Part shown: positions 15,237-52,700 of the stretch, one piece after another
How the letters are laid out: each line of letters starts with the position of its first letter
Numbering within the stretch: position 1 is the first letter of the stretch
Notes under the pieces: model-generated
What the model saw: the letters and a program-made list of their open reading frames with translations, nothing else
Database searches by the model: none
What the model was told of the DNA's origin: nothing
Program-made: the position numbers and the translations under genes
Assembly: GCF_029227915.1 (NCBI RefSeq)
Contig: NC_079886.1
Location: 10,251,501-10,315,500 of the forward strand
Source of the DNA: Hydractinia symbiolongicarpus
Lineage: Eukaryota; Cnidaria; Hydrozoa; Anthoathecata; Hydractiniidae
DNA: 64,000 nt
Direction: 5' to 3'

Positions 15237-21526
<6,290 letters not shown>

Positions 21527-23993
21527 TAGCTGTTTTTCTTTTAAAGGTAAATACGAGAAAATAAAGTTTTTAAGTTTATTTAGATTGCTATATGCAAAAT
21601 ATTTTTTAAAGAATATAATACTACTATTGTCGCTCACCACAGTCTTAACCTTTTTATCTTTGCATATTTATTTTTATCTCTTCTTTCACCAGGTTTTGTG
21701 ACAATTCCCAGAACTCGGTTTACAATTCCTAGCTTTTTTAACGTATTGTTATAGTGCTTAAACGAACTCTTTGAAGGCTATGTTTATATTAGCGTCGTTT
21801 GATTGCGTAGATTTTTGTTCGTACCAGAGTAAGAATATTGTCAAACAATAGTGCTAGTGGAGATCGAACCTATTCCAAAAGTTCAGGCGCGTTTTGATTA
21901 CTGAACTATAAATGTGTTTAAATGAATTTATACGTGTAGAATTTTGTGAAAGAAACGCGGAGTTAGAGAAATGAAAGCCAGAATAATTTGTGTTGTAACA
22001 CAATAATTGTTTTGGTTGTCATTTTGTGTAAATCTTTGATTATGTATGAAACCTTTCACCTCCTTGAGTTCCTCAAGAAACTTTTAAACTTCTAAAAGTA
22101 GATTTTAAAACGACTTGATTACCCAGGAACTTTATAAAGGAGAGAAAAGCAGTTGAGGTTGAGCATAAGAGAATGAACTTCCATATAACTTTGGAATGTA
22201 CTCCTGTAATGACGTAAACACTTTCCTTTTTTCAATTAAATTAGTGGCTGACGCTTAAATATGGTTTCGCGTGAGGAAATTTCTTTTTCTCAACCTCATA
22301 AATATGTGACATGGTACAGTGAATAAGAACAAACATATAATGTATAGTGTAAAAGTGAAAACTATTCTAGAATGTTATTTATTTGTGTCTAGCGCACCTA
22401 TTTACGCATTTTTCACAATTTTAAGTTCACATCAACTCCACTTCGTACGTACATATGGAAGGGTGGGATTGTTTTACATGAATTACTCGTACTCAAAAAT
22501 TTTGTTTCTACCCTCATAGAAAATTCTATTATTTTCCTTTAAGCAATGTTGTTGTGATATCACCTGCCCTCATGTGATTAGGTAAATTATCACAATATGG
22601 CCATTATTAGTGGGAATTCCTTACCAGTCTCCCCGCACTCGTGGGATTAAAGAAGATTGTTGTACGAAATTATTAGAATTTTCTACGTTGAAAACCCCTT
22701 TTACTTTTTTCTACGATATCGGTGAGCATATATTTATTTTTGCATTAAGCTCCTGTGCAGGAGTGGGAAGCCTGGGTTGGGAAAAGAAATAGACTTATTT
22801 ATATTTTTCTTTAGCTACCTTTTTATCTTTGTTAATTACATTTTTCTCTAAATATTATAGATGTAACAGTAAATAGAAATAAATATTGTGTTTTTAAAAT
22901 CAGGTTGATTTGTCTGTTTGTTTGTTTGTTGCTTCCTGTTCAACTTCGTCCCCATTGCTTTCCAATGGCTCTGCCCTTTCTGAGAGTTTCACCTTGGCTT
23001 CTTTTTATATCAGTGACATTCCGCTTACGATAGGACATAACATCGTTAAACGGTTTAGCGGGATTCAGAAATATTTGAAATTATTAAACTCGAATTGGGA
23101 ATAGGCTAATTTAAAAAAATTACGTACGGTTAAGTGTGAATTGCTAATGAAAAAAAAATCCAAAAAATTTGTTTATTTGGATTTTATATGAATCGCATAT
23201 GACCGCGGTGTCTTTCCTAACAGGGTCCAAAATAACTCTGACCTGAACACGTATCAAAAAGTTTTTGCGAACGGTGCAAAACGTGATTTGTCTCCGTGAT
23301 AAGCGGGGGTTTCCACAGTGTTTTTTAATGAACCAATTGATAATTATGTTTTCATTTTCTAAGCCAATCATATTTTATGAATAGTTGTATTAAAACTTTG
23401 AACACAATGAGCACATGGCTCATTCCACTGGATATGGTACTTGAATCGGAATCAATAAACACAAAATAATAGGCATGCGACAGAAATGATAGTAGAAAGT
23501 TTGGTTTGCTGTACCTTCTTTGGCATTTTTGGGTTTTCAGAATGAATCTTCCGAGATAACGAGAGTAACTCCGATGTCTTAAGGTAAAAAGTAATGTAAC
23601 TTTTTCCATTTTGAATTTTGTGTGTAAATTAACTCTCATTGTTGTGGCAGAATAGCGGAGACGGTAGCTAGCTGCCTGGCTAAGAGTTTATGAAAGATAC
23701 TTAATCTCAGATTAGTAAATAGCCTTAAAGTGGGTAACCCAGATGACTCTAACATTAAAATTTTCTTGTTTTTAATTGTTTATATTAAAATACCACGGAA
23801 AAGTTCAGCGAAATATGTAGCTAAACACCGTTACTGTTCTCTACTTGTACTACTTTCAAATTATGCCTAATCTCCCTCCTCAACCACCCCCCTCACACAC
23901 ACAGATACAAATACACACTAGCCATCTGGTGTCAGCCCTTGGTTTCTCAGTTGCCATTTTTTTAATAATTATAATTGGTATTCCTTTTCCTAG
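21527..23993. other. Intergenic region between R3H gene and CDK gene (copy 1)
   Basis: Contains the R3H 3' UTR and, presumably, the promoter and an untranslated first exon of the CDK gene, since the CDK ATG directly follows a polypyrimidine tract and AG. No further gene was seen. The same holds for 27011-29477 in copy 2. Confidence 0.5.
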
Positions 23994-24214
23994 ATGATAT
24001 CCCCAAAAAGAAACTATGAAGACCTTTCAATCATTGGAAAGGGAGCATATGGCACAGTTTTTAAGGCGTTTGATGCTGAAAACGATCGCATTGTTGCATT
24101 GAAACGTGTGCGTATTATTAATGATAGTGAAGATAAAGGTGTTCCAGTTTCAACATTACGTGAAATTACGCTATTAAAACAACTGGACAACATTGCACAC
24201 CCAAATATTGTTAG
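23994..24214 (+). pseudogene. Orphan duplicate of the CDK start-codon exon
   Basis: Identical to 29478-29698 in every base I compared. It has the acceptor directly before the ATG, codes residues 1-73 of the kinase including the glycine-rich loop GKGAYGTVFKA, and keeps its donor. The exon next in line is a duplicated R3H exon, not CDK exon 3. Splicing to that exon would join phase 2 to phase 1 and give an immediate TGA. It could still contribute to a normal kinase mRNA if splicing skipped to 31977. Confidence 0.85.
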
Positions 24215-24688
24215 GTATGTTTATTTACACTATATTTGGTACAAGTTCAATGCTAGTATTGATTCCACTGATGTCTGAGGTCATTGATACTTCTGTAACT
24301 TTGGAATGGTAAAGCTTATAAACATATTCTTTAAAAAATAGATGTTCATATCGTGCATGTTATTGGATGTTATGTGTATCAATAATAACTTATTTATTTA
24401 CATTTTTCATACAATTCTAACAAATGATCCATGTCTGTTTGTTCACAATATGAAATGCATTTCTGTATCATTTTAGTATGCTTTGTTCTATCTTGAATAT
24501 ACTATACAATGTGTATATGCATTAGAATTTGTCAAATTTTTTAAAAAAATTTTCATTTTACGCAGAAGCAAATCTTTATATCAGGGCAAACCCTAATTCT
24601 CATTACAATTCTTTAGGTATATCTCACTAACAACAGGATGAAAAGCAACATGTTTAATCATTTTTTATGAATATTTTGTCTTCTTCAG

Positions 24689-27010
24689 TTGAAAGCTATT
24701 CCCCAACAACTGCTGCAACAATTGCAATTAATCCTCAAACAGGTAGTAAGTTCTTTTCCAGTTCAAAAAATTTTCGTTGTTAGTTTTTTTTGGTCTTGTA
24801 ACAACAGCTCATGCTAAAATTTCTCGCAGGTCAACCTATTGTGGGTGCAGATAGTAGTCCTGTGTATTATCATCCCAACTATCCACAACCGCATGCAGCA
24901 CACGTTGCATATGTACCAAACACTGGCCATCCATATATGCAGCAGCAACAGCAGCAGCATGGGCAGTATGTACCCGTGTACTATGTAAGTGGAAGTACTA
25001 CATCAAACACAGGCCAGCCTGGCTCACAGTATTATATGGTGCAACAAACTCCTTCAGGACAAGTCTTATACATCCCAACACAGGTTCGTGTTTGCATATA
25101 TGTTTAAATCTGTACGATACGCTTTTAGGTGTGTAAAAGTTAACCCAGTTTGTTTGTAACTTATTCATATTACTAAAATAGTTTGTATTTTTTTTTGTAG
25201 AGTACGGTAGAACAGCAGCCATCTTCTGCTTCCACTGTTGTCTTGTCGCCACAGCAGCAAATATCTTATCACGATTATATTAATCAATTGAGTGCAATGA
25301 ATATTAATGAACGTCATTCCAGTATCTCTACCGATGAGAATTCTCTAGAAAAACAACAGGCAACTTCACCAACTAGTCCAGTAGATGGTGTAATACCTTG
25401 CGCTTCAGAATTTTCGACTCATGGCAGACAAGTTGTGTATGTACAAAACGAACAGCCAGTACAAGGAACTGTGTATCAGCAACAGGCGAATTATCCATTG
25501 CAATATTATCAGAATATACATGGCGGGTACCCAACGTATTCTATTAACCAATATGGTCAACAAGAAGCTGGACAATATAATCCTGCCACTGTCCATTCAC
25601 CTGTTCTTTCACAACGTACCCCGTCACCTACCGTTCTCCAACAACAGCAACAACACTATGTGTCTTCACAATCCGTCCAAAACACTAGAGCTGTTGCACA
25701 AGCACATCAAATTCAATCCTCCCATGGTGTTTGCAGACCAAGATTTATTTCTGGTATTATGCCTAACCCTAGACCTGGAACGCCTATGTATATACCAGTA
25801 GCTACTCCTCAAGGTTCTATGTTAGTAACAGGACAGTATCCAGGTAATGTGTCTGTGAATGCTAGTGGTTATCCTATGCAATCCATGTACAGAACTGATA
25901 AATTTTCATCGGAAAGTGCAGAGTACAAACTTGATCCTAGGGAAGGTCGCAACGTATTAAATATCGGCCAGAACAAAGCACTGTTACAAATGCAACCAAC
26001 GTATCAACCCAGTCATGCGTATTTAAGTCATCCTCAAAGGTAACGTTTTCCTGTTTTTAAAAACAGGGGCATCCTGAATATTTGATGACATTGTTTACAT
26101 GAAATCATTAAAAATTAAAAAGGGCTCTCAGTTTATCAGGTTTTGAGTTTTATTAGTTGCAGATATGAAATCTTGGACGTTTTTCAGGTGTTTTTTCCTA
26201 TACATACAAAGCAAAAATAGAATCTTTGAAATTTGGTTATTGGACCTCTGAATTGCCACTATAAAAGACTGTTTTCACTGATTTATAGTGTAGTGTTAGG
26301 CAATACCACAACGTAACCTGAGATGAACAAAATGTTTAGCTGTCGTAGGCAGTCGTGGTTTGAAGTACTAAACCTCTTCTTGTTAAAAAAATGTGTATAT
26401 TTATTTGCATTGGCTATTGAGCAGTTTTTGTTAATTGCTGTTTTAGGTTTGTCTCGCCTTCATATGGTGGTCAGTTGATACGACCCGTAGTACAGCAAGG
26501 ACGCAGGTATAGACCTCACAGACATGCGACGAACAACCAACAAATAAGAATAAGTCGACCGAACTCAAATTCTAGTGAAGCCGACCAAAAAAGTAACGTG
26601 TTATTTCTGATTACTCAGCGGTTGCAATCGTAAAATCATTGCTTACATTTTTAAATATTAAGTCATCCTATTTTTAATTTTTTTTATATATATATATTTT
26701 AGCTGTTAGTCATATATTGGAAATTTACGACTTCCCTGACACAGTAACATCAGATGCAGATGCGATATTTGACGAAATCAAGAGCTTTGGTGCTCGTATT
26801 TTAAAAATCAACAGTAGCAGTTCACAGTCTTTAAGCAGCTCACATAGTAATCTTCCTAATCAACGACCTACGATTTTAGCTATTTTTAAATCAGCGGGTG
26901 AAGCACAAAAGGCGTTGGAATCAGTAACAAGTCCGTATTATAAACTAAGAGTCTCGCAAAAGTCGCCCACTCATTTTGCGGGAGGAGACGGAAGTCCGAT
27001 CAAAAACTAG
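24689..27010 (+). pseudogene. Duplicated 3' exons 11-15 of the R3H gene, without the R3H domain
   Basis: Exon copies at 24689-24742, 24830-25083, 25201-26039, 26447-26592 and 26703-27010 keep all splice sites, phases and the stop codon. No R3H domain or upstream exon precedes them within this copy, so they can only be expressed if the R3H transcript runs through copy 1 and splices into copy 2, or as an alternative terminal exon set. The one-codon insertion (an extra Val after YYM in exon 12) and one Ala-to-Gly change are the only protein differences noticed. Confidence 0.85.
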
Positions 27011-29477
27011 TAGCTGTTTTTCTTTTAAAGGTAAATACGAGAAAATAAAGTTTTTAAGTTTATTTAGATTGCTATATGCAAAATATTTTTTAAAGAATAT
27101 AATACTACTATTGTCGCTCACCACAGTCTTAACCTTTTTATCTTTGCATATTTATTTTTATCTCTTCTTTCACCAGGTTTTGTGACAATTCCCAGAACTC
27201 GGTTTACAATTCCTAGCTTTTTTAACGTATTGTTATAGTGCTTAAACGAACTCTTTGAAGGCTATGTTTATATTAGCGTCGTTTGATTGCGTAGATTTTT
27301 GTTCGTACCAGAGTAAGAATATTGTCAAACAATAGTGCTAGTGGAGATCGAACCTATTCCAAAAGTTCAGGCGCGTTTTGATTACTGAACTATAAATGTG
27401 TTTAAATGAATTTATACGTGTAGAATTTTGTGAAAGAAACGCGGAGTTAGAGAAATGAAAGCCAGAATAATTTGTGTTGTAACACAATAATTGTTTTGGT
27501 TGTCATTTTGTGTAAATCTTTGATTATGTATGAAACCTTTCACCTCCTTGAGTTCCTCAAGAAACTTTTAAACTTCTAAAAGTAGATTTTAAAACGACTT
27601 GATTACCCAGGAACTTTATAAAGGAGAGAAAAGCAGTTGAGGTTGAGCATAAGAGAATGAACTTCCATATAACTTTGGAATGTACTCCTGTAATGACGTA
27701 AACACTTTCCTTTTTTCAATTAAATTAGTGGCTGACGCTTAAATATGGTTTCGCGTGAGGAAATTTCTTTTTCTCAACCTCATAAATATGTGACATGGTA
27801 CAGTGAATAAGAACAAACATATAATGTATAGTGTAAAAGTGAAAACTATTCTAGAATGTTATTTATTTGTGTCTAGCGCACCTATTTACGCATTTTTCAC
27901 AATTTTAAGTTCACATCAACTCCACTTCGTACGTACATATGGAAGGGTGGGATTGTTTTACATGAATTACTCGTACTCAAAAATTTTGTTTCCACCCTCA
28001 TAGAAAATTCTATTATTTTCCTTTAAGCAATGTTGTTGTGATATCACCTGCCCTCATGTGATTAGGTAAATTATCACAATATGGCCATTATTAGTGGGAA
28101 TTCCTTACCAGTCTCCCCGCACTCGTGGGATTAAAGAAGATTGTTGTACGAAATTATTAGAATTTTCTACGTTGAAAACCCCTTTTACTTTTTTCTACGA
28201 TATCGGTGAGCATATATTTATTTTTGCATTAAGCTCCTGTGCAGGAGTGGGAAGCCTGGGTTGGGAAAAGAAATAGACTTATTTATATTTTTCTTTAGCT
28301 ACCTTTTTATCTTTGTTAATTACATTTTTCTCTAAATATTATAGATGTAACAGTAAATAGAAATAAATATTGTGTTTTTAAAATCAGGTTGATTTGTCTG
28401 TTTGTTTGTTTGTTGCTTCCTGTTCAACTTCGTCCCCATTGCTTTCCAATGGCTCTGCCCTTTCTGAGAGTTTCACCTTGGCTTCTTTTTATATCAGTGA
28501 CATTCCGCTTACGATAGGACATAACATCGTTAAACGGTTTAGCGGGATTCAGAAATATTTGAAATTATTAAACTCGAATTGGGAATAGGCTAATTTAAAA
28601 AAATTACGTACGGTTAAGTGTGAATTGCTAATGAAAAAAAAATCCAAAAAATTTGTTTATTTGGATTTTATATGAATCGCATATGACCGCGGTGTCTTTC
28701 CTAACAGGGTCCAAAATAACTCTGACCTGAACACGTATCAAAAAGTTTTTGCGAACGGTGCAAAACGTGATTTGTCTCCGTGATAAGCGGGGGTTTCCAC
28801 AGTGTTTTTTAATGAACCAATTGATAATTATGTTTTCATTTTCTAAGCCAATCATATTTTATGAATAGTTGTATTAAAACTTTGAACACAATGAGCACAT
28901 GGCTCATTCCACTGGATATGGTACTTGAATCGGAATCAATAAACACAAAATAATAGGCATGCGACAGAAATGATAGTAGAAAGTTTGGTTTGCTGTACCT
29001 TCTTTGGCATTTTTGGGTTTTCAGAATGAATCTTCCGAGATAACGAGAGTAACTCCGATGTCTTAAGGTAAAAAGTAATGTAACTTTTTCCATTTTGAAT
29101 TTTGTGTGTAAATTAACTCTCATTGTTGTGGCAGAATAGCGGAGACGGTAGCTAGCTGCCTGGCTAAGAGTTTATGAAAGATACTTAATCTCAGATTAGT
29201 AAATAGCCTTAAAGTGGGTAACCCAGATGACTCTAACATTAAAATTTTCTTGTTTTTAATTGTTTATATTAAAATACCACGGAAAAGTTCAGCGAAATAT
29301 GTAGCTAAACACCGTTACTGTTCTCTACTTGTACTACTTTCAAATTATGCCTAATCTCCCTCCTCAACCACCCCCCTCACACACACAGATACAAATACAC
29401 ACTAGCCATCTGGTGTCAGCCCTTGGTTTCTCAGTTGCCATTTTTTTAATAATTATAATTGGTATTCCTTTTCCTAG
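27011..29477. other. Intergenic region upstream of the intact CDK gene (copy 2)
   Basis: Near-identical to 21527-23993. It supplies the immediate upstream region, and presumably the 5' UTR, of the complete CDK gene. Confidence 0.5.
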
Positions 29478-35842
<6,365 letters not shown>

Positions 35843-38051: not shown

Positions 38052-38505
38052 GCGGGTTTTTTTTCCGAATCGGATATTTTATCCAGTTTCGGAATGTTTT
38101 TATTTTTCTCGGTCAGACTGCCAATGGGAAACTTTGCAGGGTTTTTATTGGCAGTATGCATAAAGGGTTAAAACGTATATGTCAGCATTACCTTCCAACT
38201 TTGCATAGGGCAAACATACCGTTTATCTTTTTCGTAGAATTAGTCCCCTCGAAAATTATTAGAAAATATTTTTGTATACAGTTGACTCTCTCTATCTCGA
38301 ACTCGCAAGGGACCAGAAAATTTGTTCGAGATAGAGAAAGTTCGAGATAGAGAAAAATTGACAAAAATTGGATTTTTTCGTAAAAAACGTATTTTTAACC
38401 TTCAGTGTATCGGGAGTTGATAGAGGTCAATGAGAGATGTTAAAATGTTAATATTCAATGCACAAGACTTCTTTTAAAATAAATACATAAAATAAATTTA
38501 CAGCT

Positions 38506-40714
38506 TCATTTAAAGAAATCGGTTATGTCTTTTTGTTTAAGTGATGCCACTCTGTCTTCATTATACATTTTTTCGAATTTGGAGATAAGCATTTGCATTT
38601 CATTGCCTTTTTCGCAACACATTGCTAGATCTTTCAAAAGATCAATACTACACTCGACTTTTGATCTTGATGGTTTTTCGACAACTATATCAAATGAATC
38701 ATCCTCCATGTCACTGCCATCGTCTTCAGCTTCGTCGTCCTGAGATTTCCGAAATTCATCAATGATATCCTCATTAGAGATTTGAGGGGCGGTTGCGATA
38801 ACCTCATCATCCAAGGTCACAAGATCATTAGCACTGAGATCATTTGGTACCAATGATGGATCAGCCTCTCTTGAATCATCCAAACTTTCTTGAAGATCTT
38901 TAAATGGGTCATCCGAATCAGCAATAGCATCCTGTTGTCCTGTAGAAGAGATTCCAGATTTCTTAAAACAATTGATGATGGTTTGTTTAGTTACAGCCTC
39001 CCAAGAATCAGCCAGTATCTTCATTCCGCTTAAAATTGAAATCTTTGGCAAAGGTTTGTTGTTCTCCAAAGCACTGCACAGCAAACGTACAACTCTCCTT
39101 CGGTAATGCGCTTTTAGACTTCGTTTGACACCTTGGTCCATCGGTTGCAACACAGACGTTGTGTTAGGGGGCAAAAAAACGAGATGAATGTTTGTTAAGT
39201 TCGAGATCGATGGGTGTGCTGGACAGTTGTCGATTATAAGAACGATTTTTCTCCCGTCTACACGAAACTTTTGGTCCAGTTTCCGGACCCAGTTTTCAAA
39301 TATTTCACTATCCATCCAACTTTTCTTTTGTGATGTGTATTGGCAAGGGAGATGTTTGATGTTATTAAAGCAGCGAGGTTTTTTTGATTTGCCAATGACG
39401 AACATTGGCAACTTTTCTCCAGTAGCACTTGCTGCGGCCATTCCAGTGAATCTCAATTTGCTCTTCTTCCCCCCAGAACACTTTTCTCCTTTGAGGTGGT
39501 ATGTTTTCTCGGGAAGACATTGGTAAAACAAACCAAATTCGTCTGCGTTGAAAGTGTCCTCCAATTTGTAATTCGACAGAATGGTTGGGAGCGTGGTTTC
39601 GTTCCAGGAGCTTGTCATTTGATTTGTAACTGACTTACATTCACCACCGATAACTTTCAAGGAAATGCTGTGCCTGAAAAAGTAAATAAATAAAAATGTT
39701 TCGTGTAAAGCAGCCCTTAATATTAATCGAACATAACACAATCGAACATAAATTTTAAGATTGGTTCGATTCGATTCTTATCTGTTTACAAATTATATTG
39801 TTGAACACGTGGAGTGTAGTAGAATCTGTAATGAACAATATGGCTATAAATTTACTGGGACAAGAAATTGAATTAACTGAAAATATGCCACTCGTCGTTT
39901 TGTCTTCCACTGACATTACATCTTACATAAAAGGGTACCATGTTTACAAAAGTTTATGGACACCAGTCCAACAAGAAAAACTACAAGGAGAAATGGAACC
40001 TCACAACCCTGTCGACAAATACGCTGTAGCTGTTAAAAAAGATGGGAAACTAGTCAAACATTTGCCGTTAGGAGAAAATGGAAAGTTTGCTAAAACCATA
40101 TTTTATTTTCTCCGTGCTGATCAATTTGGGAGATGTGATATAACTGTTACTGGAAAGGCAGTTAATCTTGGAGATGGTGATGGAATGCAGGTCCCCTGTG
40201 TTCTAAGCTTATCCGGGCAAAAGTCAATGGTAGAGATTTTGAAAAAACAGAAGCTGTAATTTTAGTGTTTGATATGTAATCACGTTGTTTTTATACACGA
40301 AATGAAAATTATAACTATGTTATTTACCTTTTTTTCCATTTGTCCAGCCAACCATCGGAAGCCTTGAAACTTGAACAATCAAAGTTTTTAGCAAAACTGA
40401 GTGCCTTTTCTTTTATCAAATTGCCATCGATCGGAATGTTTTGGCTTCTTTGAACAGTAAACCATTTGAAAACAGCCTTGTCTATCTGCTCATAATCACA
40501 GCCTCGAACCTTTTTCGAACCAGACGCGGTTTTTTGTTCTTCCAAGCTTTGTAGGATCTTATGTTTTTTTTTTCATCCAAGTTGAAATTGTATTTTTGGG
40601 GATCCCGTATTTTTCTGCTGCCTCCTTGTTTGACATTCCTTTCTCGATTTCCCGAATTATTTGACATTTTTGAATTAAAGAAACGTTATTGAGTTTTCTT
40701 TTTAAAGCCGACAT
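38506..40714 (-). CDS. Tigger/pogo transposase, two exons, one homopolymer frameshift
   Basis: Exon 1 is 40714-40328, intron 40327-39674, exon 2 39673-38506. Exon 1 starts MSALKRKLNNVSLIQK and encodes an N-terminal helix-turn-helix (EIEKGMSNKEAAEKYGIPKN) and the CENP-B-type second DNA-binding domain (FKASDGWLDKWKKR). A run of ten A residues at 40573-40564 puts the two halves out of frame; nine would restore it. Donor and acceptor join Arg AG|G in phase 2. Exon 2 has the DDE nuclease: FNADEFGLFYQ (first Asp), LIIDNCPAHP (second) and TTSVLQPMDQGV (third). An acidic linker and a C-terminal QKDITDFFK follow; the last fits the PCNA-interaction box QxxIxxFF, a feature known from Drosophila pogo. 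The enzyme would cut and paste the element at TA sites. Confidence 0.9.
39798..40259 (+). CDS. Stand-alone HIRAN-domain protein inside the transposase intron, antisense
   Basis: A complete single-exon frame of 153 codons lies wholly in the 654-bp intron of the transposase, on the opposite strand. Residues about 44-140 form a HIRAN domain: IKGYHVYKSLWTP, EPHNPVDKYAVAVKKDG, VKHLP, FYFLRA, ITVTGK and GMQVPCVLSLSG match the family pattern. HIRAN domains in HLTF/Rad5-type proteins bind 3' ends of single-stranded DNA at stalled forks. No helicase or nuclease domain follows. Start choice is open: in-frame Mets are at residues 1, 12, 15 and 30. Small HIRAN-only proteins are common in cnidarian gene sets, where they may likewise be transposon-borne; that link is my inference. 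No poly(A) signal was recognised nearby. Confidence 0.85.
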   Translation: MLNTWSVVESVMNNMAINLLGQEIELTENMPLVVLSSTDITSYIKGYHVYKSLWTPVQQEKLQGEMEPHNPVDKYAVAVKKDGKLVKHLPLGENGKFAKTIFYFLRADQFGRCDITVTGKAVNLGDGDGMQVPCVLSLSGQKSMVEILKKQKL

Positions 40715-41058
40715 CTTCACCTCAAGAAGGTTTCTGGTTCAAAACACTGTAAACAATGTTTTGTGAGTGACTTTAGAATTCGAACGTCAAACATTTTCGT
40801 TCGAAAATGGAACATTTTAATTCGATTTTTAGTGTAAATAGGTTCTTAAATCCGGAAAAGTTCGAGATAGAGAGAGAAACAGTCAGACGGGACCGAGATT
40901 TTGGTTCGAGATAGAGAGGTATTCGAGATAGAGAGGTTCGAGATAAAGAGAGGAAAATAGCTTAGAGCCTACACAAATGTCCAAGGGACCGAGACTTTGG
41001 TTCGAGATAGAGAGATGTTCGAGATAGAGGGTAGTCGAGATAGAGAGAGTCAACTGTA

Positions 41059-49700: not shown

Positions 49701-52700
49701 CAATTAGTTCTTTACTCTTTTACCTTATTCCTTCTGCTTCATCTTTTCTTCTCTCGTCTTCATATTGAGGAATGGGGCGCCATGTAAACTCTAACCTCCA
49801 TTTAAAAACACCCCTTTGAAACGGTTCTGGCACGGCATTGTAATGAAAATTTGTCTCGCTTATCTCGTCAATTACTGGCATAACTACATTTGTACGGTCA
49901 TCTTTTATCCTTGTTAACAGAGGCTCTACCCATCCCAGTGAACACTCACAATGAGCGTCTAAAAATGTCAATACTTTTCCCTTCGCTTCTTTTGCACCTG
50001 ATAAACGCGCCCGTATGAGACCTTGTCTTTCCTTCAGACGTATGATTTTAACAACTCCTAAATTTGCTATGTAGTCATCAAGACGTTGTTTTAAATCGTC
50101 TAAAAGTTAAAAAGAAGAAATTATGAGTGACGTAACATCTAAAATAGTTACTCATTCATTTATTCATTCATTCATTTATTTATTCTTTCTATCATACACT
50201 CATTTATTTACTCGCACCATCATCTAATCACTTCTCCACTTTCAGGAAATGTACCTGTGGATCAACCTCATCTCCAGCTTATATGTGTTCATTTGTTCAA
50301 GCCATCCAAACAAAGAAAGCCTAACAAACCCTAAGGACGAGGTTGCCTAAGATGTCGCGTATCGACATACATTCCATCGTTACTTTCAACAAAATAAACC
50401 AATCAAAAGTAAAATATATTAATGTTGTTTTTCCTTAACCGCGTACCCAGGGTCTTGTGGCCCCTGAGCTGTTAGTACGGAATCAACTTAATCAACAAGG
50501 CAAATGAACGAGGTTGGTTTTCCCCAGCACATTCCCTTAGTCTATATCTTTCTGAAAAGAAGAAACACATCTACGACCCTCCATCCTTGTTGGTTACACT
50601 ACACAAGTATGCAAGTATAGCACAAAAATATTGAAATCTTACCCCTCGTGCTTGCATCGTCGACTAAAATAATTTCTTTCAAGAATTTTGGTGGTGTTCT
50701 GTTGATAACGCTATGTACAGTACGAAGGAGGGTGGACCACGCTTCGTTGTGAAAACATATAATAATCGACGTTGATGGAAGATTCGTAGGGTACTTCTTC
50801 GTCTTGCATCTAGAAAACAAACAAACAAAAAAATGATGTGGAATAGTCATAAAAGGGAAACATAAAGTTGGTTGTTTCATGGTTATTAGTTTCATGGATT
50901 TATCCTCAAATGTGACAAATTGTGTACACAAGTCTCTGTTCGCAGAAATTAAACCCTGCGAGCGAGAGACAAATGGTAGCAAAAAATATAACAGGAAACA
51001 CTACTGCTGGTTTAAAATTCATTTAAAATATCTTCCTAGTTTTTTATCAGCTCTAGTACGCATGCGCATCATTTTAGTCACAATAGCAATCTAAACTGCT
51101 GGTATACAATCGTCTTAGAGATATAAATATTACTGGGGACGAAAACATACATAACCAATAATAACTCCTCAGGCGAATTTATAATAAATGTTGTTTATAT
51201 ATGGAGTACTGATTTCAATAATAGCCGGCGCGGCAGTGACGTAGGCCTACCCTAGTTAAATATAAATTATCCTATGTTGGCATAAAGTTATGCAATGTTG
51301 GGTTATGAGCTCTCTACAAGGTATGTGGTTATCGTATTGGACGATAAAAATAAACCAACAAAATATTGACTATTAGCTCACCTTTGATTTCTATAGTCTC
51401 GAAGTTTTCTTTGAAGCGATATTTTATCACTAGCTAACAAGTTAAATGCATGTTGTGTGTATCCTACTTTTTCTCTATATTTATTAAAATACTTTATATC
51501 AACTCCTTTTCCCATATAACCTGCTTCAAACGGTCTCATGCGAGGCGAAACATCATAATCAGCTAAATTCCAGGTCACGATTTCTGTATTAATCGAGTTC
51601 AGGCTAGCAAAATTAAAATAAACTCGATGACTAAAGTTTGTGAGTCTCATGTATAACACGCACAACGGAAACCATATCAATAACGCAACATATGTTCTGA
51701 CGGCTCGTACTCGGTAATACAAACCACATAGTCTCATTTTTGTGCTGAGTGAGGAGTACGAGGTGTAAACGTATGCAACGCCAGTATCATATCGCACTTA
51801 GGTATAAATTGACAAAGAAGCGCAAAGTATGCGATTATATATTGTTTCACTATAATCAACTATTATTATTTTAATATTATTATCAATTATCCTAGACAAC
51901 CGAAAAATAGTTAACCCTAACTCTAATTGTTAATTTTCAATACATTTTCCAGCCTCCCACCCTACCCCACCCACGTAATTCCGAAATCTAGAGTTGCATT
52001 CAAACAAACAAACAAATCAACAAATAAGCTTAACAAATGCTTTCAACAACAGCATCTAGAAATTTAGCCAAATTTATTTATTCCATGGTTAAACATTTGA
52101 ACTCGAAGGGAATTATAGAGATATTATATAAGCATTTTCTAAAGTAGTAACCTTAGATGCGGAACTAAACCTAGTCACAGTGTGATACCAGCCGTGTACT
52201 GATCGAGGCTGTATGCACGAATTACCAGCTAATAACTTTGATGCGGCAAAACGGTATGACATCCAATCAACCGGTACGGCATGTATCTCAACCGGCATGA
52301 CATGCAGTCAACTGGTATGACATCCAGACAACCAGTATGACATGCAGAAAACCGGTATGGTACGCAGTAATTATTAATTATTCATCATTCAATATGGTAG
52401 CCGCAATTGCATCACTCTCCTCCCACGGCGTCACAAGTGTGCCATGTGTATTTTAATACACATGAAAAATATTTGTACACATCAATAAAATGGTCTGCCT
52501 CATTGCGAATAAATATTTTACATGCTGAAAATTTCACTGATCTTTGTAATAAGAAAAAAACATTTCTTTTTCAAACCACATTATAATAGAGTCACGTAAT
52601 AATGAAAAAACAACCGCAGCATTTTGGTTTCCAAGTCAAACCGTGATATAAATATTCCATAAAAAATAACAGATGTAATTCAAATATAAGATGAAAAATA

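Follow-up and report, generated by a model that had tools for sequence, protein, structure and literature searches.

Can a transposon of the pogo/Tigger kind carry a second gene of its own, on the opposite strand and inside the intron of its transposase, and what might such a gene do for it? Elements of this kind are spread across the eukaryotes, and several host genes, CENP-B among them, descend from them. The copy that raises the question lies in the genome of the hydrozoan Hydractinia symbiolongicarpus, in a stretch of 64,000 nucleotides that we call the window (NC_079886.1, positions 10,251,501 to 10,315,500 of the forward strand). The sequence-only reading, made from the letters of the window, had described there an element with perfect terminal inverted repeats, a two-exon transposase with an exact GT-AG junction, and a complete 153-codon HIRAN-domain frame nested in the intron. 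We searched the assembly (480.9 Mb, 76 contigs) for copies and relatives. We are confident that the frame is a conserved functional second gene of pogo transposons and not a chance insertion, because its placement is kept, its protein is under purifying selection, its predicted fold agrees, it diverges together with the transposase, and a PIP motif is found on either one partner or the other. The parts of the element are as follows.

38277..41058, no strand: whole pogo/Tigger-like transposon, TA to TA, recognised by its terminal repeats and by 40 chained family elements in the genome
38277..38300, plus strand: left terminal inverted repeat including the TA, perfect over 24 nt
41035..41058, minus strand: right terminal inverted repeat including the TA, perfect over 24 nt
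38289..38353, no strand: left subterminal copies of TTCGAGATAGAGA with at most one mismatch, starting at 38289 (reverse), 38325 and 38341
40861..41046, no strand: right subterminal copies of TTCGAGATAGAGA with at most one mismatch, starting at 40861, 40905, 40922, 40937, 41001, 41018 and 41034
40328..40714, minus strand: transposase exon 1, the DNA-binding part (HTH_Tnp_Tc5), with ATG at 40714, frameshifted in this copy
39674..40327, minus strand: transposase intron, GT-AG, 654 bp, placed by the exon junctions
38506..39673, minus strand: transposase exon 2 (DDE_1, DD30D, by Pfam match and Asp spacing), ending at stop 38506
38512..38535, minus strand: codons for QKDITDFF, the PIP-box motif at the C-terminus (residue 381 when counted in the frame 38506-39675)
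39831..40259, plus strand: HIRAN-like gene of 142 aa, antisense inside the transposase intron, open from TTG 39798, assigned from relatives, profiles and predicted fold

The TA duplication, short terminal inverted repeat, HTH/CENP-B-type domain and DDE_1 domain of the pogo superfamily are all present, and in its TA ends, short repeats, HTH and DDE_1 parts and overall length the element resembles described pogo or Tigger-like transposons (PMC7325037, PMC7386202). The perfect repeats, 24 nt long, are as first described, and both ends recur in 17 of 20 compared copies (the window's included), whose flanks are mostly different. Subterminal copies of the short repeat number ten, in either orientation. 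Pfam places HTH_Tnp_Tc5 in the frame 40324-40545 (E 1.7e-16) and DDE_1 in exon 2 (E 6.1e-43). The 654-bp GT-AG intron is likewise real, but the intactness of the transposase had been overstated, since exon 1 is frameshifted and reading from its ATG ends after 51 codons. The plus-strand frame 39798-40259 lies entirely within the intron, although 153 codons are reached only by counting from a TTG; translation probably begins at ATG 39831, which matches the start of the database relative P0001. Within this protein a Lys replaces the Gly of the motif VGHLPLG, which is Gly in all 19 other copies compared. The window copy is therefore damaged, both in its transposase frame and at a conserved motif glycine. 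The exon-2 frames of P0121, from the window family, and of P0130, from Penaeus monodon, both read through the acceptor as FFRH[NS]ISLK, an indication that the window family and this shrimp relative have their intron at a common position.

Is the nested protein a HIRAN protein at all? Searched as a single sequence, it has no Pfam match at E <= 1, PF08797 included, and no PDB sequence match at E <= 10. The assignment comes instead from its relatives, from profiles and from the predicted fold. Related protein clusters number 374 at E <= 0.001, PF08797 is matched by 24 of 35 relatives (best E 4.5e-4), HIRAN proteins from three other loci of the genome (L063, L065, L066) exceed the Pfam cut-off, and both profile comparison and the predicted fold agree with a HIRAN domain. 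Because the relatives match PF08797 while the protein by itself does not, it is best termed HIRAN-like, a divergent relative, and the domain identity first given to it is to be read in that sense. D94 has a role in the 3'-end pocket of HLTF. By human HLTF numbering, the columns of N91, D94 and H110 are retained in the window's family and its sister families (A to E, described below), and those of N90, Y72 and Y93 are changed. The pocket of HLTF includes Y72, Y93, N90 and N91, with Y72 and Y93 as stacking tyrosines (PMC4666394); since families A to E have other residues in the columns aligned with these two, DNA binding by their proteins may differ from that of HLTF. The departure from HLTF is smaller in a third lineage, where the aromatic pair is nearly kept: its HIRAN protein retains the columns of Y72, N90, N91, D94 and H110, with an aromatic residue at 93.

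The copies of the window's own family (family A) show how firmly the frame belongs to the element. A DNA search of the genome (40 of 385 candidates scored) gave 63 pieces that chain into the 40 elements, 34 of them with both ends. Exon 2, HIRAN and exon 1 are all whole in 15 of these 34, and HIRAN is whole in all 15 elements that have both ends and a whole exon 2, so that a general absence from other copies, which would have spoken against the first reading, is not what we see; none of the 34 has a whole exon 2 without a whole HIRAN. HIRAN is gone from 12 of the 34, each also missing part of exon 2, cut in three, and kept beside a cut exon 2 in four. Six pieces do not have both ends: five carry a whole HIRAN, and one lacks HIRAN but has an almost complete exon 2. 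Among the 20 compared copies, again counting the window's, the HIRAN frame is intact from ATG to stop in 16; it is open from a second ATG in L019 and broken in L010, L022 and L026. The joined transposase frame of 517 aa is open in two of the 20 (L012, L022), and measures 510 aa in L018 and 511 aa in L024. Across 19 young copies, with L016 excluded for the flanks it has in common with L014, pN/pS is 1.80 for HIRAN and 0.78 for the transposase, near-neutral variation as expected from decay after insertion. This variation, together with the loss of HIRAN in deletion derivatives, is also what a passenger or chance frame without selection would leave behind. The identical or half-identical flanks of L014/L016 and of L018/L025 show that the members of each pair did not insert separately; either the host segment was duplicated or the assembly holds it twice.

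Older divergence gives a different picture. A HIRAN protein search of the genome (150 of 720 candidates scored) resolves families at about 97% (A), 62% (B), 54% (C) and 44% (E) identity, plus others. In family B the HIRAN gene is antisense between exon 1 and exon 2 at six of six loci (L053-L058), and the family C locus (L059) has the same arrangement as the window, in keeping with the early view of the layout as stable. The transposase match of family E (L060) has no such gap, and HIRAN lies upstream, head-to-head; two decayed loci (L061, L062) have it at the 5' side of transposase remnants. Over 121 shared codons, pN between families is 0.28-0.39 and pS, saturated in many pairs, is 0.66-0.85. 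Because pN is well below pS, the HIRAN protein has been kept between families while silent sites have not, that is, by purifying selection, for which the sequence-only reading had asked as a check; young copies vary near neutrally. A transposase search (106 of 925 candidates scored) gave 99 merged loci, and at 77 of them HIRAN lies 5' of the transposase on the other strand, with a spacing characteristic of the family (mostly 123, 234, 281-287 or 622-632 bp). Position alone would predict about 0.2 of the 99 (150 matches x 6 kb / 481 Mb). At 19 loci none of the 150 scored HIRAN matches falls within 3 kb, and at three HIRAN has another orientation or position.

The Pfam model, which misses divergent HIRAN proteins, revealed further elements. 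Run against the genome (150 of 251 candidates scored), it gave 91 matches, none within 600 bp of a place found by the protein search. Many belong to multi-copy groups. The strongest (80.9 bits) is a singleton at C3:13870189, intron-split and HLTF-like (L067, G000:C3:13864600-13870700); judged from its HIRAN part, it is probably the host HLTF gene. In a second pogo lineage (L063), HIRAN stands head-to-head with a DD32D transposase, their start codons 5 bp apart, and in 22 of 23 counted transposase rows it lies 5' of the transposase on the other strand. That count takes rows of at least 88% identity and at least 760 bases (23 of 142; those left out are shorter or more distant, many of them lineage 1 matches) and used 32 of the 91 HIRAN rows. 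In a third (L065, L066), the head-to-head partner is a DD35D transposase (DDE_1 E 2e-10), and the same placement holds in 21 of 21 rows at 90% identity or above and in seven of seven full-length rows at 62%, two short 62% rows being left out. The spacing between the last two catalytic Asp residues is 30 residues in families A, B, C and E (lineage 1), 32 in lineage 2 and 35 in lineage 3, which match the DD30D, DD32D and DD35D spacings of the pogo superfamily; DD30D, DD30-32D and DD35D are recognised pogo groups, and Tigger is polyphyletic (PMC7325037). At G000:C12:8533480-8538804, a family E and a lineage 2 element lie within a few kb, two HIRAN-bearing pogo lineages adjoining. The sequence-only reading was right that a HIRAN-bearing pogo family exists, and understated its breadth, which extends to three pogo lineages and to both nested and head-to-head layouts.

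Across six representatives the identities of HIRAN and transposase are strongly correlated (Mantel r 0.91, a value reached in 2.6% of 720 permutations): the two proteins co-diverge. The association has its bounds. HIRAN was detected in five of 49 rows of distant lineage 3 transposase relatives at 46-61% identity and in none of 22 rows below 46%, and because these relatives are mostly without a detected HIRAN, the gene is common in the pogo elements of this genome and not universal to, or needed by, every one of them, with the reservation that the Pfam model can overlook divergent HIRAN proteins. A passenger or chance frame is nonetheless very improbable: pN well below pS between families, HIRAN frames that are mostly open, and the presence of the gene in three diverged lineages refute it in the main.

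Lineage 3 also bears on the age of the activity. Among the matches listed, 19 of its transposase loci are 100% identical, and such near-identical copies are a sign that the elements moved recently; the host animal is one that can be reared under laboratory conditions. One element spans about 1588-5060 in L065, with inverted ends of 39 bp or longer made of repeats like ATTTTGGCGGGAACT; such repeats were located at 2367-2573 in L064 and at 1588-1626 and 4850-5060 in L065. We take these repeats to resemble E2F sites, in which case they would fit S-phase expression or a binding site for a host factor.

Which cellular process might such a pair of proteins engage? A first indication is the PIP box. 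The canonical motif Qxx[I/L/M]xxF[F/Y] ends the transposases of families A (QKDITDFF), B (QTSILSFF), C (QTVITDFF) and E (QCSIKDFF) and of lineage 2 (QSSIKDYF), and is absent from the HIRAN proteins of these same groups. Lineage 3 differs from this: its 540-aa transposase frame has no PIP motif, and its HIRAN proteins, L3 and L3b, have one (QKDIRNFF, QKDIRSFF), the transposase sequence of L3b being partial. Shuffled proteins contain the motif in 0.7-0.9% of cases. It occurs in 65 of 120 transposase relatives listed, many of them truncated proteins, in none of 165 HIRAN relatives listed, and, by a looser pattern confined to the last 25 residues, in 76 of the 120. A two-hybrid screen identified the pogo transposase itself as a partner of PCNA, and Tigger and Lemi1 share its PIP box (PMC5371812), so that the C-terminal position on the transposase is like that of pogo, while a motif on the HIRAN protein is not. 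A putative PCNA-binding motif thus sits on one or other of the two partners. Because PIP motifs are found on either protein, a function at replication intermediates or excision ends becomes more likely, and we think it probable that HIRAN protein and transposase act jointly on DNA ends or forks. The likeness of the second protein to the end-gripping part of a repair enzyme that works at forks suggests that the elements move with help from DNA replication.

Work on HLTF shows what a HIRAN domain can do there. It binds single-stranded 3'-OH ends (PMC11237066, PMC4666394), and fork regression requires it (PMC4666394). Through its HIRAN domain HLTF strips Cas9 from cut DNA, and the isolated domain is dominant negative (PMC11237066); cells without HLTF show more break signals at nickase sites, and removal of the nickase by HLTF is the explanation put forward in that study (PMC11620331). 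The transposon proteins differ from HLTF and Rad5 in being lone HIRAN proteins of 142-216 aa, with no SNF2 or RING parts. By analogy, a HIRAN protein that stands alone and is tied to PCNA, whether by itself or via the transposase, has the makeup to be looked for in a factor that sits on 3' ends, be it at forks or at breaks made by the transposase. The two products would then work jointly at replication forks: PCNA would tether whichever partner has the PIP box, and the HIRAN protein would hold exposed 3' ends, either nascent fork ends or ends cut by the transposase. The most likely benefit would be that occupied ends keep a host remodeller of the HLTF/Rad5 type from binding through its own HIRAN domain, and so from stripping the transposase off the DNA or reversing the fork; that the protein does shield 3' ends in this way is a doubtful step. 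If so, a mobile element may counter HLTF-type remodellers. The nested layout would let two opposed genes share one short stretch, and splicing would remove from the transposase mRNA the sequence complementary to the HIRAN mRNA.

Other roles can be read from the same evidence. HIRAN and PIP box might serve to guide the transposase to forks, which it would favour as target or donor sites much as Tn7 does by means of TnsE and the beta clamp, rather than to shield cut ends. The PIP motifs, the predicted HIRAN fold and the coupling of Tn7 and others to sliding clamps (PMC5371812) agree with such guidance, a lesser but real possibility, although a PIP box alone would serve equally well. The HIRAN protein might instead draw repair factors of the host to the site of excision, or restore the donor copy, with no contest with HLTF, HIRAN being a DNA-end module of repair proteins (PMC4666394); this seems unlikely, as Pfam finds no further recognisable recruiting domain in the protein and a lone HIRAN inhibits HLTF in vitro instead of helping it (PMC11237066). 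A regulator that adjusts expression or copy number by binding the transposase or the ends of its own element, its link to forks being incidental, would suit the divergent head-to-head layout of family E and lineages 2 and 3 as well as the subterminal repeat arrays. The PIP motif on the lineage 3 HIRAN protein speaks against that role, which we regard as improbable; moreover, binding of specific duplex sites is not a known property of HIRAN domains.

Joint action at DNA ends or forks, the reading we prefer, can be widened into a more tentative one: a large and old division of pogo may consist of two-gene, replication-coupled elements, in which HIRAN and transposase would form one machine, held at PCNA by whichever partner has the PIP box, with HIRAN capturing 3' ends at forks and transposition in animals being steered by, or shielded from, host fork remodelling; this would be the eukaryotic equivalent of the fork-directed pathway of Tn7 and a direct contest of the transposon with HLTF. 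This wider form is less likely than not. By organisation the elements are like Tn7, which has an accessory protein beside its transposase and couples to the sliding clamp (PMC5371812), and like PIF/Harbinger, which also has an accessory protein beside its transposase (PMC2836001). A conserved HIRAN partner and a PIP box on either protein would give replication-coupled transposition in animals a testable form.

What is new here is a conserved, unrelated accessory gene in pogo transposons, the transposons themselves being known: to the described pogo/Tigger plan the Hydractinia elements add an opposite-strand HIRAN gene, nested in an intron or head-to-head. The claim that no described family has this cargo agrees with what we found in two broad surveys, whose main text does not contain the word HIRAN (Dupeyron et al. 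2020, PMC7325037; Gao et al. 2020, PMC7386202), and in the openly accessible literature on HIRAN and transposons, which reports no HIRAN gene in eukaryotic transposons as far as it could be consulted, Repbase and most subscription journals lying outside its scope. In the accessible parts of that literature, HIRAN domain, transposable element and transposase come together in a match that concerns marine viruses; HIRAN appears in PMC5512222 in the reference list only and not in PMC5481773. Dupeyron et al. (PMC7325037) do report additional ORFs, in the ciliate elements TBE and Tec. Gao et al. describe elements with one or two transposase-encoding ORFs (PMC7386202), and these are a different thing from a HIRAN cargo.

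The rest of the window holds features of its own. Positions 19133-24615 and 24614-30099 form a head-to-tail duplication of 5.5 kb at 99.89% identity, with frames of 266 aa at 19759-20559 and 25243-26043, which either arose in tandem very recently or is an artefact of the assembly. At 975-2488 two frames have weak Pfam matches to a Dam methylase and a tyrosine recombinase (phage integrase), which we take to be probably a DIRS-like retrotransposon. On the minus strand, 50602-50982 is a frame with a glycosyltransferase family 2 domain, which may be an exon of a polypeptide GalNAc-transferase gene.
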